In this document: positions 49,760 through 56,019 of the stretch, piece after piece
How the letters are laid out: each line of letters begins with the position of its first letter
Position numbering within the stretch: position 1 is the first letter of the stretch
Source of the DNA: Nitrospirota bacterium
GTDB taxonomy: Bacteria; Nitrospirota; Thermodesulfovibrionia; Thermodesulfovibrionales; Dissulfurispiraceae
NCBI GenBank assembly: GCA_004321915.1
Contig: SCQE01000088.1
Span: 62,001 to 126,000, forward strand
DNA: 64,000 bases
Direction: 5' to 3'
The notes under the pieces: generated by a model
The model's input: only the letters and a program-made list of their open reading frames with translations
Told to the model about the DNA's origin: nothing
Databases searched by the model: none
Program-made: the position numbers and the translations under genes

Positions 49760-50746
49760 ATGCCTATAATAAAAGTCGAAAACCTGACAAAACATTTTGG
49801 CCCGGTCGCCGCGGTTGACGGAATAGCGTTTGAGGTCGAAAAAAATTCGATATTCGGTTTTCTGGGCCCTAACGGCGCAGGAAAAACCACAACCATAAAC
49901 ATTCTCTGCACACTGCTGTCTCCAACTTCGGGTAAAGCCGCCATTGACGGCCATGACTGCATGACGCGCTCTTCCGAAGTGCGAAAAAAGATCGGGATCG
50001 TTTTTCAGGACACCACGCTCGACAAAGAGCTTACCGCTTACGAAAACCTAAGTTTTCATGCCTACCTGTACGGCGTCCCTAAAGATCTGCATAAGAAAAA
50101 AATCGATGCGGCGCTTGATTTCATCGGTCTTTATGACAGAAAAGACGACCAAGTAAAAAAATTCTCGGGGGGAATGAAGCGCAGACTTGAAGTCGCGCGC
50201 GGCATCATCCATGAGCCCGCGGTTTTATTTTTGGACGAACCCACGCTCGGGCTCGATCCTCAAAGCAGGGCCAATCTCTGGGAATTCATATCGAAGCTTC
50301 CGGAAAAAAGCGGCGTGACCGTTTTTATGACCACGCACTACATGGAGGAAGCCGAAATCTGCAACAGGATAGCCATAATCGACAAAGGCCGGATAATTGT
50401 AAACGGAACTCCGGAAGAACTCAAAAAAATGGTGGGGGGAGACGTTATTTATCTCAAAACCACAAACAACAAGCTTGCGGCAGAAGAGTTGAAAAAAACC
50501 ATGGGAATAGGGGCGGAAGAAAAAAACGGGGAACTGTTTATTCAGGCGGTCAGGGGCGATGCCTGCATTCCAAAGCTGATAAGCTCTCTCGCGGATATGG
50601 TGCTGTCCGTGAGACTGCAGAGGCCGACGCTGAACGATGTTTTTTTAAAACTTACCGGCAAGGCGATAAGAGACGAGGCGCAGGGAAGCGGCGACGAGCT
50701 GAAAGATTCGATCAGATCGTACAGAAAAAAGTTCGACAAGAAATGA
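49760..50746 (+). CDS. ABC-2 exporter ATPase (DrrA type)
   Basis: A 328-residue ABC ATPase: Walker A GPNGAGKTTT, signature FSGGMKRRLE, Walker B VLFLDEPTLGLDP and a long C-terminal extension as in DrrA/CcmA-like exporters. It powers the permease encoded next, which overlaps by 4 bp. Cargo unknown (drug, lipid or polysaccharide). A TATAAT (49731-49736) lies upstream, without a good -35 box. Confidence 0.92.
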   Translation: MPIIKVENLTKHFGPVAAVDGIAFEVEKNSIFGFLGPNGAGKTTTINILCTLLSPTSGKAAIDGHDCMTRSSEVRKKIGIVFQDTTLDKELTAYENLSFHAYLYGVPKDLHKKKIDAALDFIGLYDRKDDQVKKFSGGMKRRLEVARGIIHEPAVLFLDEPTLGLDPQSRANLWEFISKLPEKSGVTVFMTTHYMEEAEICNRIAIIDKGRIIVNGTPEELKKMVGGDVIYLKTTNNKLAAEELKKTMGIGAEEKNGELFIQAVRGDACIPKLISSLADMVLSVRLQRPTLNDVFLKLTGKAIRDEAQGSGDELKDSIRSYRKKFDKK

Positions 50747-51516
50747 GCACAGACCTTAACGCGATATATGTGATAGTGGCGCGCGAGCTGATAAAGTTCG
50801 TGCGCGAAAAAGGCAAGCTCGTCTCGACGCTCGCAAGGCCCCTTATCTGGCTTTTCCTTGTAGGGGGCGGCATGTCGAGGGTCGTAAGCCCGGACATGGG
50901 AATGCCCTACATGCAGTTCATATTCCCCGGGATCCTCGGTATGACAATACTCTTCAGTTCTATTTTTTCATCGATATCGATAATATGGGACAAGGAATTC
51001 GGCTTCATGAAAGAAATGCTGGTGGCCCCGGTTTCGAGGTTTTCGATAGTTGTCGGGAAAGCCTTAAGCGGGACTCTCGTGTCAACTATTCAGGCCGTTA
51101 TAATATTACTGCTGTTCCCGGTTATCGGCCTTAAAATAGACGCGGTCCAGATCCCGCTCATAGTCTTTATGTGCATGGGACTGGCCTTCTGCCTCGCATC
51201 GCTAGGGATACTGATTGCGACCTTCTATGAGAACTTCGAAAGCTTCAGCGTGATAATGAATTTCATAGTGATGCCGATGTTTTTCCTTTCGGGCGCCATG
51301 TATCCTGTCAAAACACTGCCGCCGGCGCTCGGGCTTCTGACCATGCTCAACCCGCTCACTTACGGCATAGACGCCCTTAAATACATGGTGTTTCCCGCCA
51401 AGGGCGGCTTGTCCCTGACCCATGATTTTTCGCTTGCGGTCGATATCGCAGTGATAGCAGTATGCTCCACGGTTTTTGTGCTGATTGCCGGAATAATGTT
51501 CGAGAGAAAAAAATAG
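50743..51516 (+). CDS. ABC-2 exporter permease (DrrB type)
   Basis: A 257-residue integral membrane protein with six predicted segments and the ABC-2 motif NPLTYGIDALKYM near the C-terminus. The N-terminal VARELIKFVREKGKL helix is the usual ATPase contact. Pairs with the upstream ATPase to form a half-size exporter that would dimerise. Confidence 0.92.
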   Translation: MSTDLNAIYVIVARELIKFVREKGKLVSTLARPLIWLFLVGGGMSRVVSPDMGMPYMQFIFPGILGMTILFSSIFSSISIIWDKEFGFMKEMLVAPVSRFSIVVGKALSGTLVSTIQAVIILLLFPVIGLKIDAVQIPLIVFMCMGLAFCLASLGILIATFYENFESFSVIMNFIVMPMFFLSGAMYPVKTLPPALGLLTMLNPLTYGIDALKYMVFPAKGGLSLTHDFSLAVDIAVIAVCSTVFVLIAGIMFERKK

Positions 51517-51612
51517 ATCGGCTTACGGTTTTTATATGCTAAAATCATAGTAAGCAGAAGCGCAAATGCTGCCTGAGTTTTTAATTGTTATAGGGCAGGG
51601 AAAGGAGGGGCA

Positions 51613-51699
51613 ATGGCCTGCAAGTCATCCGCCGGAAGCAAGAGCAAATGCGGAACTAAAAAACCCGCGACCAAGAAGCCTGCCGCAAAAAAGAAATAA
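51613..51699 (+). CDS. 28-residue basic peptide
   Basis: A 28-codon frame with an excellent ribosome site (AAAGGAGGGG, 51601-51610) and an intrinsic terminator 7 bp after its stop. The peptide begins MACKSS, has two Cys (positions 3 and 13), and ends in a run of Lys, Pro and Ala repeats (KKPATKKPAAKKK). Composition resembles the basic tails of histone-H1-like proteins. The signals make it a credible gene in spite of its size; function unknown. Confidence 0.6.
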   Translation: MACKSSAGSKSKCGTKKPATKKPAAKKK

Positions 51700-51706
51700 T
51701 CTACGG

Positions 51707-51728
51707 CCCCGACACAGTCGGGGTTTTT
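51707..51728 (+). terminator. Intrinsic terminator after the 28-residue gene
   Basis: CCCCGAC (51707-51713) pairs with GTCGGGG (51717-51723) around ACA and is followed by TTTTT. It lies between two convergent small genes. Confidence 0.8.
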
Positions 51729-51742
51729 GCATTTACCGTATT

Positions 51743-51901
51743 TCAGATCTTTTCGGGTTGGGGCACTGTCTGTTTCGGCTGCTCTTTAATCGACAGGTCC
51801 TTTTCGAATTCCGGACATTTTCTGCCGGCAGGCATAGAAAATTGTTTTTGACAAGTCCCCCGGTAAGCGCAAATTATACAAAGATTCTTTTCTCCGGCCA
51901 C
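51743..51901 (-). CDS. 52-residue Cys-rich small protein
   Basis: A GTG start (complement of 51899-51901) with AGGAGGGC upstream (complement of 51906-51912) opens a 52-codon frame. The peptide has an ordered cysteine pattern, C8-x2-C11-x5-C17-x11-C29, in the segments LCIICAYRGTCQK and GRKCPEFEKDL, followed by a Gln/Pro/Lys tail. Such spacing suggests a small metal-binding (zinc or Fe-S) protein. It converges on the 28-residue gene. The pattern looks like a conserved family, but I cannot name it. Bases 51914-52013 upstream hold AT-rich promoter-like sequence. Confidence 0.6.
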   Translation of the reverse strand: MAGEKNLCIICAYRGTCQKQFSMPAGRKCPEFEKDLSIKEQPKQTVPQPEKI

Positions 51902-52013
51902 AGCGCCCTCCTGAAATCAAAAATTAACACCTAATTTACATTCCACGATAATATTATATATTAACCGGCTAAACATGGAAGAAACATCGTAGCCTCTCTA
52001 TTCGAAGGAGAAA

Positions 52014-54233
52014 ATGGAAGATAAAAATCAACAAAAACCCCAAGCGCCGTTAACGGCCGCTCCAGTGCAGCAATCCGTTGCACAGACAGCCCCTCCAAAA
52101 AAACTGGGCGACTATCTGATGGACGCAAAGATGGTCACCCAAGAGCAACTCGACAAGGCGCTCGATATCCAGAAAATCTCCAAGAAGAAACTGGGGGACA
52201 CGCTTGTCGATCTCGGATACCTGACTATAAGCCAGATGTCATCCCTGCTGACCCAACAGCTCAAAACCAAAACAGGCGCCCAGAAAAAAAGATTGGGAGA
52301 TTTGTTGATCGATGCAAAGATAATTACACAGGAACAGCTGGGTCAGGCGCTGGAGACGCAAAAGACAAAGAAAGGAAAAATCGGGCAGATATTGATCGAC
52401 CTTGGTTTTGTTACAAAAGACCAGATCGCTGAAGGCATTTCGGAAAAGCTCAAGATCCCGATAATATCCTGCGCAGAATACGAAATAGGCGGAGAGCTTC
52501 AAGCGCTGATAAACAAAGAAACTGCTGAAAAAAATATGTTGATACCTCTCGAGAAAAAAGGCAATACGCTTATAATCGCCATGGCGGACCCCTTGGATTA
52601 TCAAGCTATCGACGAGCTTTCCTTTAAGACCGGACTGAAAATCACCCCGCTCATAAGTTACGATTGGGCGATATCGAAAGCCATAGAAAAAAATTACGTT
52701 GCGGCCGAGGAAGCCTCGGTCGAAGATAATATTTTCGCCCAGCTCGGCGACGACATCAATGCGGACAAAGAAGTGGAATTCGTAGAGCAGCAGGACGAAA
52801 GCGAAGAGAACATGAATATCGACATGCTCTACTCGAAAAGCAACTTCCCTCCGATAGTAAAACTGGTCGCAATGCTTGTAGCGGAAGGGAGCAAAGCGAG
52901 GGCAAGCGACATTCATATAGAGCCGCGCGACAAATACGTTCAGATACGGTTCAGGGTGGACGGCGAACTCCAAAACGTCTTCAAATACCAGAAAGATGTT
53001 CATCCCTCCGTGGTTTCAAGAATAAAGATCATCTCGAAACTGGACATAACGAACAGGCGCACGCCTCAGGACGGAAGCACGCATGTCTCGTTCAACAATA
53101 AGGAAATCGATTTGAGGGTCGCCACCGCGCCCACGGTGTATGGGGAGCAGATAGTCATAAGGCTGCTGGACCACAGCTCGGGGATAATACCCATAGATGC
53201 CCTCGGCATGCCCGAGAATATAAAAATAAAGCTTGTTGAGGTCTTTAAACGGCCGCAAGGCATGCTTCTCGTAACCGGGCCTACCGGCAGCGGAAAAACT
53301 ACCACACTGTATTCGAGCTTGAACGAACTGCGTTCGGATGCGAGGAAGGTCGTAACTATCGAGGACCCTGCCGAATATAAGCTCGATGGCATAACCCAAC
53401 AACAAGTCAACGATGCTGTGGGAAGGACCTTCGCGGCGATCCTGAAATCCATTCTGCGTCAGGACCCCGATGTAATCATGCTCGGAGAGATCAGAGACCT
53501 CGAAACCGCCGAGACGGCGATGAAGGCCGCGCTTACCGGACATTTCGTGTTAAGCACGCTGCACACCAACAACACGATAGCTACGGTCACCAGACTTATA
53601 GAAATGGGCATACCTTCCTATATCGTAAGTTCGGCCCTGAGCGGTGTGGTGGCACAGCGGCTTATCAGAAGAATATGCGCCTCCTGCAAAATCGAGGTCA
53701 AGGTGCCGCCTGAAACAGCAACTACAATGAAATCCATGGGGCTTGAGTCGCCTGAAAAATTCTGGAAGGGTTCGGGTTGCGCTAAATGCGGCAATTCCGG
53801 ATATTCGGGCAGAATAGCCGTTTATGAATTTCTGTCTATGACGGCCGAATTCAAACGGATACTTGCGAGCGGGGCCACGGAAAGCGACCTGTTTATTCAG
53901 GCAAAGAAGGACGGCGTAAATTTTCTGTTCGAAGACGCCTTCAACAAGGTCAGGGCCGGGATTTCGACATTTGAAGAGATCCTTGCCAAAATCCCTATGG
54001 AACATCTGTCGAAACTTAAAGAGCCCGAAAAGAAAATTCTGCAATATTCGGCGCCTCCATCCGCGCAACCTAAGCCTGTCGCTCCCGAACCGGAGATGCC
54101 GTACATGACAGCGGAACAGATAATATATCAAAGCATCGCAGGTATGAACGAGAATACTGTCGGGCCTGAAACATATGAGGAAGAAGATGCTTTCCCTGAC
54201 AACGCTCTGAGCGATTTTCTGCGTCTAGGGTAA
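52014..54233 (+). CDS. pilB: PilB/GspE-type secretion ATPase with two MshEN domains
   Basis: A 739-residue ATPase that drives pilus or type II pseudopilus extension. After a Gln/Pro-rich start there are two MshEN units (about 30-82 and 94-146), each made of two 24-residue segments split by five residues (KISKK and KTKKG), the c-di-GMP-binding layout. Then come the GspE N-terminal fold, the RecA-like ATPase (Walker A GPTGSGKTTT, Asp and Walker B boxes around VIMLGEIRDLETAE, His box LSTLHTN) and a Cys4 zinc site (CASC ... CAKCG). A long Pro-rich tail ends the protein. Start fixed by GAAGGAG. No pilin or PilC gene is in the window. Confidence 0.9.
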   Translation: MEDKNQQKPQAPLTAAPVQQSVAQTAPPKKLGDYLMDAKMVTQEQLDKALDIQKISKKKLGDTLVDLGYLTISQMSSLLTQQLKTKTGAQKKRLGDLLIDAKIITQEQLGQALETQKTKKGKIGQILIDLGFVTKDQIAEGISEKLKIPIISCAEYEIGGELQALINKETAEKNMLIPLEKKGNTLIIAMADPLDYQAIDELSFKTGLKITPLISYDWAISKAIEKNYVAAEEASVEDNIFAQLGDDINADKEVEFVEQQDESEENMNIDMLYSKSNFPPIVKLVAMLVAEGSKARASDIHIEPRDKYVQIRFRVDGELQNVFKYQKDVHPSVVSRIKIISKLDITNRRTPQDGSTHVSFNNKEIDLRVATAPTVYGEQIVIRLLDHSSGIIPIDALGMPENIKIKLVEVFKRPQGMLLVTGPTGSGKTTTLYSSLNELRSDARKVVTIEDPAEYKLDGITQQQVNDAVGRTFAAILKSILRQDPDVIMLGEIRDLETAETAMKAALTGHFVLSTLHTNNTIATVTRLIEMGIPSYIVSSALSGVVAQRLIRRICASCKIEVKVPPETATTMKSMGLESPEKFWKGSGCAKCGNSGYSGRIAVYEFLSMTAEFKRILASGATESDLFIQAKKDGVNFLFEDAFNKVRAGISTFEEILAKIPMEHLSKLKEPEKKILQYSAPPSAQPKPVAPEPEMPYMTAEQIIYQSIAGMNENTVGPETYEEEDAFPDNALSDFLRLG

Positions 54234-54242
54234 AAAACAACT

Positions 54243-55145
54243 TTAGTCTTCGAGCAGTTTTAGCGCGAGTTGTTTAACGGCCAAAGAAAAAGGCGCGGCA
54301 GGATTTTGTAGCAGAAGGGGCTTCATGGACGCTATAGACCTTCTGACGGTATCGTCTTCGGGCACGATAATCATTTCAGCGCACAATATTCCTAAATACT
54401 GTCCCATAAGCGCTTTTATAGAGTCTCCGGATTTTACGTCGTTCGTGGTCCTTACCCTGTTGATGATTATAGTAGGTCTGAAAGTGGTCAGGATTTTTTT
54501 TGCGGATTCCGCGGTTTCGGGATCTATCTGTACGGCGTTTCTGAAAAAATCGTCCATTGTTTTCAGTTCCGGATGATTCTTCGGATCACGCGCTTTTTCC
54601 AAGAGAGACAGCAACCCTACGGACTGCCGTGTTTTAAAATGGACCGCGAGCCACCTGAACAGCGCGGATTTTACAAAACCGTAAACCTTTAAAACAGAGG
54701 TCACCTCAGGCGTCGTGACTATGAGGGTCTTGTGGGCTATGTAGAGAAAGTCCACGACATTGGCTGAAGAACCCGCGCCGAGGTCCAGAATCGCCATATC
54801 GCAATCCAGTTTAAAAAGCTGCACGATCAGGTCCGCTTTCTGGTTGAAAGGCAGGTCGGCGATATTCGGCATGTCCCCGCCGTGAATCATCCGCAGATTT
54901 TCTATTCCTGTTTTTATGACAGCGCTATCAAGCCCGCTTATTTTTTTGCTCACAAAATCATCGAAAGTATGCTTGATTTCACATATGCCGAAGAACACAT
55001 TAAGGTTTGCTCCGCCGAGGTCAAAATCAACAGCAATAACTTTTTTGCCTATCCCGGCCAATGCTACCGCAAGATTAGCCGAGATGGTGCTTTTACCGAC
55101 ACCGCCCTTCGGCCCCGCAATCGCAATAATTTTTTGTCTTTCCAT
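54243..55145 (-). CDS. MinD/ParA-family ATPase (FlhG-like)
   Basis: A 300-residue deviant Walker A ATPase: KGGVGKST, VIAVDFDLGGANL and DLGAGSS. Of the MinD/FlhG group, which places or counts surface structures such as flagella or pili. No flagellar gene is near; the convergent neighbour is the pilB-like ATPase, only 9 bp away at the 3' ends, so a link with pili is possible but the two are not cotranscribed. It has no recognisable C-terminal membrane helix. Confidence 0.85.
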   Translation of the reverse strand: MERQKIIAIAGPKGGVGKSTISANLAVALAGIGKKVIAVDFDLGGANLNVFFGICEIKHTFDDFVSKKISGLDSAVIKTGIENLRMIHGGDMPNIADLPFNQKADLIVQLFKLDCDMAILDLGAGSSANVVDFLYIAHKTLIVTTPEVTSVLKVYGFVKSALFRWLAVHFKTRQSVGLLSLLEKARDPKNHPELKTMDDFFRNAVQIDPETAESAKKILTTFRPTIIINRVRTTNDVKSGDSIKALMGQYLGILCAEMIIVPEDDTVRRSIASMKPLLLQNPAAPFSLAVKQLALKLLED

Positions 55146-55172: not shown

Positions 55173-55565
55173 TCAGACTATTTTCAGTACCACCCTTCGA
55201 TGTCGCGGACCGTCAAACTCGCAAAAATAGATAGATTGCCATGTGCCCAAAACAAGCTTGCCTTCGTCGATAAGAAGGGATTGGGAAACTCCGACAAGAG
55301 ACGATTTGATATGCGCGGCGGAATTGCCTTCCATGTGGTGATAATCGCCTTCAAAAGGAATTTCTTTGTTTAAAAAGACGAGCATGTCCCGCTTGACCGA
55401 AGGGTCGGCGCCCTCGTTGATAGTAAGCCCTGCTGTTGTATGCGGAACGTAAATATAACAAACACCGCTTGCGACGCCGGATTCCCGCACAGCCGCTTTA
55501 AGTTCGTCCGTTATGTCTATGAACTCCGTCTTTGAGCGGCTTTTTACATTAATGGTTTTCAGCAT
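55173..55565 (-). CDS. YjbQ/UPF0047 family protein
   Basis: The ATG at 55563-55565 follows GGAG by 7 bp; a TTG two codons earlier is the alternative. The 130-residue product is a YjbQ-type protein: GVCYIYVPHTTAGLTINEGADPSV and the His-rich EGDYHHMEGNSAAHIKSS form the conserved metal-like site, with GTWQSIYFCEFDGPR at the end. Some members show weak thiamine-phosphate synthase activity; the real function is unclear. Overlaps folK by 17 bp. Confidence 0.9.
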   Translation of the reverse strand: MLKTINVKSRSKTEFIDITDELKAAVRESGVASGVCYIYVPHTTAGLTINEGADPSVKRDMLVFLNKEIPFEGDYHHMEGNSAAHIKSSLVGVSQSLLIDEGKLVLGTWQSIYFCEFDGPRHRRVVLKIV

Positions 55566-56019
55566 GCGCAAGCTCCTTTTTCAACTCTGCAACGGTTTTG
55601 CCGCTGACCGGGTCGGTTTTGGCGGGGGCGATCTCATTTAAAGGCATAAGCACGAAATCCCTTTCGCGAAGGTACGGGTGAGGTATTTCGATTGGGCCGG
55701 TCCGCAGAATGAGGTCGTCATAAAAAAGTATGTCGAGGTCTATCACCCGCGGCCCCCATTTAATCGCATCCGTTCTTCCGAGCCCCTCTTCGATCTTTTT
55801 TATTACGGCAAGCAACTCAACCGGCGATAAGAAAGTTTCGGCTTCGAGCGCAAGGTTCAAAAAAGAGGGCTGGTCTTTAACGCCCCAAGGTTCCGTTTCA
55901 TAAAAAGACGAAATTTTTTTTATAGCAAGCCCATGCTCCGCCAAGGAATCTATTGCCCTTAGACAGTTGGCTTGCCTGTCCCCCAGATTAGAACCGATTC
56001 CTATATGGGCCGTGGACAC
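55549..56019 (-). CDS. folK: HPPK, folate pyrophosphokinase
   Basis: A 156-residue enzyme that pyrophosphorylates 6-hydroxymethyl-dihydropterin with ATP in folate synthesis. Motifs: IGIGSNLGDRQANC, SSFYETEPWGVKDQPSFLN, the metal-binding RVIDLDILFYDD and IPHPYLRERDFVLMPL. It starts with GTG immediately after the dapL stop and overlaps the YjbQ gene. Confidence 0.95.
   Translation of the reverse strand: MSTAHIGIGSNLGDRQANCLRAIDSLAEHGLAIKKISSFYETEPWGVKDQPSFLNLALEAETFLSPVELLAVIKKIEEGLGRTDAIKWGPRVIDLDILFYDDLILRTGPIEIPHPYLRERDFVLMPLNEIAPAKTDPVSGKTVAELKKELAHAENH

Follow-up and report, generated by a model that had tools for sequence, protein, structure and literature searches.

The 52 amino acid protein encoded on the minus strand at 51743-51901 of the window, the 64,000-nucleotide stretch of Nitrospirota DNA analysed here, is a member of a family of small proteins with a predicted four-cysteine metal site, which is unnamed in the family libraries searched and which we refer to as Cys4. 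It is a stand-alone copy of a ca. 35-residue four-cysteine domain followed by a charged tail, and its gene is conserved, translated-looking and under purifying selection. In other genomes the same domain is found fused to two different P-loop enzymes or encoded directly behind a conserved nuclease-like gene.

A convergent pair of short genes

The first-pass annotation had proposed two convergent short genes at this locus, and both frames are exactly as it described, including the C-x2-C-x5-C-x11-C arrangement of the 52-residue product. The features of the locus are as follows.

51603-51608, plus strand: AGGAGG, ribosome site of the peptide gene, read from the sequence
51613-51699, plus strand: gene for a 28 amino acid lysine-rich peptide with two cysteines, ATG start, supported by homologues and pN/pS
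51705-51725, plus strand: hairpin terminator followed by a T-run, 3' of the peptide gene, 9 pairs, -14.6 kcal/mol
51743-51901, minus strand: Cys4 protein gene, 52 amino acids, GTG start, cysteines at 8, 11, 17 and 29
51907-51912, minus strand: AGGAGG, ribosome site of the Cys4 gene, read from the sequence, 5 nt before the GTG
51939-51964: 26-nt block identical in the window and G001 by BLASTN alignment, in the space that separates the Cys4 gene from the divergent pilB-like gene
51953-51958, minus strand: TATAAT, candidate -10 element of the Cys4 gene, read from the sequence
52014-54233, plus strand: PilB/GspE-like ATPase with an MshEN domain, divergent from the Cys4 gene (T2SSE, 6e-126)
55173-55571, minus strand: YjbQ-type gene, a name we take from the look of its sequence; neighbour cluster 2, present in 23 of 134 loci including the window

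The strong ribosome sites claimed for both genes are borne out by the AGGAGG preceding each of them. G001, the only genome of the same genus, retains both frames together with their ribosome sites and convergent layout, at protein identities of 76% for Cys4 and 93% for the peptide. The GTG start noted for the 52-residue frame is present in the window and is replaced by ATG in G001, where the start region reads AGGAGG, TTCT and ATG with the ribosome site in the same place. The candidate TATAAT lies within the block identical in G001, and a promoter scan listed no minus-strand site. The hairpin placed between the two genes exists, but its T-run serves the plus strand only and it therefore reads as a terminator of the peptide gene and not as a two-way terminator. 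A terminator scan returned 2 terminator-like sites where shuffled sequences gave 1.1 on average, which carries small statistical weight alone.

Purifying selection is evident for both frames, with Nei-Gojobori pN/pS values between the window and G001 of 0.134/0.638 for Cys4 and 0.032/0.278 for the peptide, and chance open reading frames are thereby rejected. Across 26 pairs of Cys4 cores of equal length with pS between 0.05 and 0.65, dN/dS has a median of 0.067 and a maximum of 0.175. The Cys4 frame is very short, and its conservation could in principle stem from an RNA or an overlap constraint acting on a frame with no product or a disposable one. This reading is already contradicted, and we assign it almost no probability, given a dN/dS of ca. 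0.1 against the G001 copy, the low median above, the restriction of core indels to whole codons between the third and fourth cysteines and the fusion of the domain to two enzymes at the protein level. No Rfam match was found at the locus, a result that neither favours nor excludes an RNA. The annotation had regarded both frames as genes lying below usual calling limits, a view that a lack of conserved frames or start regions in relatives would have undone; conservation in relatives was found and supports it.

The 28 amino acid peptide represents a real, conserved micro-gene family unrelated to Cys4, and the two genes merely share a convergent intergenic space. It carries the signature M[AS]C[KG]-x(3-9)-C-[GA] followed by a lysine-rich tail and is preceded by a purine-rich ribosome site; the core can also be written M[AS]CK...CG[T/S] or M[AS]CK..CGT..KK. 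Relatives with both signature and ribosome site occur in G001, G015, G050, G098, G105, G117, G057, G166, G306, G046, G089, G063, G034, G314 and G002. With a seven-sequence profile, hits were obtained in 23 of 295 genomes at E≤0.05, nine of these hits being partial, weak or unread; the G015 peptide, which had scored 2e-10 in another search, was missed. Lysine-rich peptides of 22-28 residues with two cysteines are encoded at 51613-51699 and at L033, L265, L266, L267, L269, L276-L279, L281 and L284-L287, and many of these genes are followed by a hairpin-like stretch. The convergent arrangement with Cys4 was observed in the window's genus only, and a functional pairing of the two was rejected since peptide relatives lie elsewhere (in G015 the peptide is on C7 and Cys4 on C70). 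A role of the peptide in nucleic-acid or metal binding is only a guess. Directly 5' of the peptide gene, a DrrA/DrrB-type ABC exporter pair occupies 49760-51516 on the plus strand.

Distribution and signature of the Cys4 family

Among 120 relatives, a single-sequence search detected Cys4 homologues in 102 at E≤1 and in 94 at E≤4.5e-5, the latter set being used for the co-occurrence tally below. A 27-row profile (E≤0.001) detected the family in 107 of the 295 genomes from the window's phylum, and a 69-row profile (E≤1e-4) in 107 of 297 from the phylum to which a Syntrophus MAG belongs, 8 of the latter 107 showing two matches. By the titles of its database records the family spans two phyla. Of 211 loci encoding a relative, 80 were kept. 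By record title most of their hosts are Nitrospirae/Nitrospirota, Thermodesulfovibrionales, Syntrophaceae, Desulfomonile, Geobacteraceae and further 'Deltaproteobacteria' MAGs, while some carry only the label 'uncultured bacterium' or 'Proteobacteria'. One genome (G007) contains two near-identical copies, L052 and L053, the second continuing into another and longer tail, as would result from a frameshift or a broken duplication.

Comparison of 125 distinct cores shows that the four cysteines, one arginine, one lysine and one final aspartate are invariant. The residue before the arginine is tryptophan in 116 cores and tyrosine in 9, and the gap between the third and fourth cysteines varies from 11 to 17 residues. 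The invariance of all four cysteines is what a metal site predicts and agrees with the likeness to a small metal-binding protein pointed out in the first-pass annotation.

A known protein family was rejected as the source of Cys4. The window protein matched no family above cut-off in Pfam, NCBIfam, PHROGs or PADLOC, and 27 members gave chance-level matches only (best Pfam 0.0046, best NCBIfam 0.022), three of them touching the RecB-like model TIGR03491 at no better than E 0.04. No PDB sequence matched, PDB profile searches each reached a best E of 1.1, and two AlphaFold models were poor (pLDDT 53.7 and 45.3). No paper on the family was found in the literature library searched. The absence of a name in family libraries is explained mainly by the ca. 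50-residue length of the members. Carriage mainly by phages or plasmids was likewise rejected, with one match in the viral collection, on a 545-kb contig, and none in plasmids.

Fusion partners and gene neighbours

The Cys4 domain lies N-terminal to a THEP1 NTPase (PF03266, NTPase_1) in 15 of 295 genomes as judged by coordinates, comprising 12 genomes with both parts in one frame and 3 f27 genomes with a degenerate NTPase. In families f21 and f22, which belong to other classes, it forms the first 45 residues of a ca. 220 amino acid protein whose remainder is a THEP1-type NTPase_1 (Pfam E of 9e-50, 1.5e-47 and 7e-48). Pfam supports the fused form at L132, L172, L174 and L176. The f27 fusions match NTPase_1 at 7e-10 and have a Walker A region without the GKT signature. 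At L176, L177 and L180 the P-loop reads GPAGTDRTR or GPSGSERTR in place of GxxGxGKT, and these fusions are perhaps a non-hydrolysing derivative. In Syntrophus/Syntrophaceae-type MAGs the domain precedes a second enzyme, Cytidylate_kin2 (PF13189), with E of 1.5e-42 and 8e-43 in the two proteins tested and further examples read by eye. Three genomes of the Syntrophus-MAG phylum set (G325, G355 and G574) each contain one free and one long-frame copy. Since it extends the N-terminus of both THEP1 and Cytidylate_kin2, Cys4 is a domain common to two different P-loop partners; the window protein lacks the NTPase part, and the Cytidylate_kin2 enzyme is absent from the window.

THEP1 of A. aeolicus has ATPase/GTPase activity and a solved structure, and its in vivo role is given as unknown in the passages cited here (PMC1079890). 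Across 295 genomes, unfused THEP1 and stand-alone Cys4 co-occur more often than expected, in 29/52 versus 63/228 (odds ratio 3.3), from counts made by eye that ignore lineage and to which we give no weight. The window genome contains no PF03266 match, which rejects an obligate pairing with THEP1, and THEP1 is absent from many other Cys4-bearing genomes.

The commonest neighbour of Cys4 is an unnamed protein of ca. 280 amino acids. Its gene immediately precedes Cys4, in the same orientation, in 42 of the 134 distinct loci that remained after removal of duplicates (L101:2601-3446 and 41 further loci). In 32 of these 42 loci its stop codon overlaps or lies within 20 nt of the Cys4 start. The protein is strongly conserved and carries the signature G-G-D-Y-D ... 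E-x-K, which, taken with weak matches below threshold to models of the DUF4143, Hjc and YraN type, suggests a PD-(D/E)XK fold; it passes the cut-off of no PD-(D/E)XK family or any other family searched. This nuclease-like gene occurs in 70 of 120 relatives, and in 55 of the 56 relatives that contain both genes it is adjacent to Cys4, upstream and on the same strand. It is also found upstream of the THEP1 fusions L173 and L175. A further 38 relatives have Cys4 only, 14 have the nuclease-like gene only and 12 have neither, so the two are distributed independently (Fisher p 0.66) and an obligate pairing was rejected. In the 14 relatives that carry the nuclease-like gene alone, the genes following it differ and no replacement Cys4 frame was found.

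Neither the window genome nor G001 yielded the nuclease-like gene. YjbQ-type and FolK-type genes, which recur upstream of Cys4 in other loci, are still present upstream and on the same strand in the window, and from this recurrence we infer an older gene order, kept in part at this locus, from which the nuclease-like gene was lost in the window lineage. A PilB-like ATPase with N-terminal c-di-GMP-type MshE motifs adjoins a convergent MinD-like ATPase at 52014-55145, and this pair separates YjbQ from Cys4. Other neighbours vary by lineage and include argS, PolX, RecO, MiaA and ScpB-like genes, all named by eye. Among 74 stand-alone loci without the nuclease-like gene, a -10-like hexamer is present between -90 and -15 in 36, compared with 6 at +500, and many stand-alone Cys4 genes are therefore probably transcribed on their own.

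The predicted metal site and its possible roles

Common zinc ribbons carry paired CxxC...CxxC motifs, and the three clustered cysteines of Cas4 and AddB are spaced C-x2-C-x5-C. Most of the named Cys4 hosts belong to lineages that we take to be anaerobic. Two published [4Fe-4S] sites follow the Cys4 ligand order in the passages cited, namely the auxiliary cluster of AhbD with CX2CX5CX20-38C (PMC10452713) and Aux II of anSMEcpe with Cys317, 320, 326 and 348 (PMC5715301). This SPASM/Twitch spacing, C-x2-C-x5-C with a fourth cysteine downstream, is present in all 125 Cys4 cores. The published sites are located in radical SAM tails with last gaps of 20-38 (AhbD) and 21 (anSMEcpe), while Cys4 stands alone or precedes a P-loop enzyme in the same chain, has a gap of 11-17 and adds an invariant A-W/Y-R, lysine and aspartate. 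No SPASM match was found among 27 members, the fusion partners are P-loop and not radical SAM enzymes, and hhalign of Cys4 with two SPASM tails taken from the window genome, a weak test using a two-sequence alignment, gave a probability of 1.2%. With the longer last gap and this low score, no homology to these sites is shown.

The reading we put forward, with about an even chance of being right, is that Cys4 is a four-cysteine metal-site module accessory to nucleotide- or nucleic-acid-handling enzymes. The four cysteines would hold one metal centre, with a [4Fe-4S] cluster likelier than zinc, and the domain may serve as a redox- or iron-responsive or docking module, acting in cis within fusions and in trans as a separate protein. 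An accessory role is suggested by its use in two P-loop enzymes and its position behind the nuclease-like gene. Iron-sulfur is favoured over zinc to a moderate degree, by analogy, because of the published ligand order and the presumed anaerobic life of the hosts. Independent occurrence of the nuclease-like gene and the absence of THEP1 from many genomes mean that no single partner explains the family.

Alternatively, Cys4 could be a structural zinc mini-domain, a knuckle or ribbon making protein or nucleic-acid contacts only and having no redox or iron-sensing role. Four invariant cysteines accompanied by conserved basic residues fit this reading, and a four-cysteine site of the Cas4/AddB type carries zinc in place of iron-sulfur in one structure, DUF3799, according to the text cited (PMC3466216), so that spacing does not settle the metal. 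The Cys4 spacing is nevertheless unlike that of zinc ribbons and matches the [4Fe-4S] sites above, and we regard the zinc reading as a serious possibility at well under even chances. The same source describes the Cas4/AddB 'iron staple' as three clustered cysteines plus a distant one near a RecB/PD-(D/E)XK nuclease (PMC3466216), and by analogy Cys4 could be a detached metal staple, supplied in trans to form a two-gene Fe-S nuclease with the upstream PD-(D/E)XK-like protein. The adjacency in 55 of 56 relatives, the short or overlapping junctions, the same gene ahead of two THEP1 fusions and the conserved G-G-D-Y-D ... E-x-K all speak for such a subunit. Set against it are the independent presence of the two genes, the many genomes, the window's included, with Cys4 and no nuclease-like gene, and the sub-threshold family matches of the putative nuclease. 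In Cas4/AddB, moreover, the lone cysteine comes first and all four lie in the nuclease chain, whereas in Cys4 it comes last and the protein is separate. We consider this two-gene nuclease improbable.

Returning to the accessory module, a new and more specific version, which we think unlikely, is a transferable [4Fe-4S] 'sensor clip' that anaerobes would attach to THEP1 or to a cytidylate-kinase-like enzyme, or provide as a separate protein, coupling nucleotide turnover to iron or redox state. If the centre is indeed iron-sulfur, Cys4 would rank among the smallest dedicated cluster proteins that serve both in free form and as plug-in domains. The family occurs in most sampled relatives and about one third of the sampled genomes in two groups, yet it is unnamed in the libraries searched. 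For THEP1, an N-terminal metal module offers a handle on its function through the question whether NTP hydrolysis depends on the predicted metal centre.
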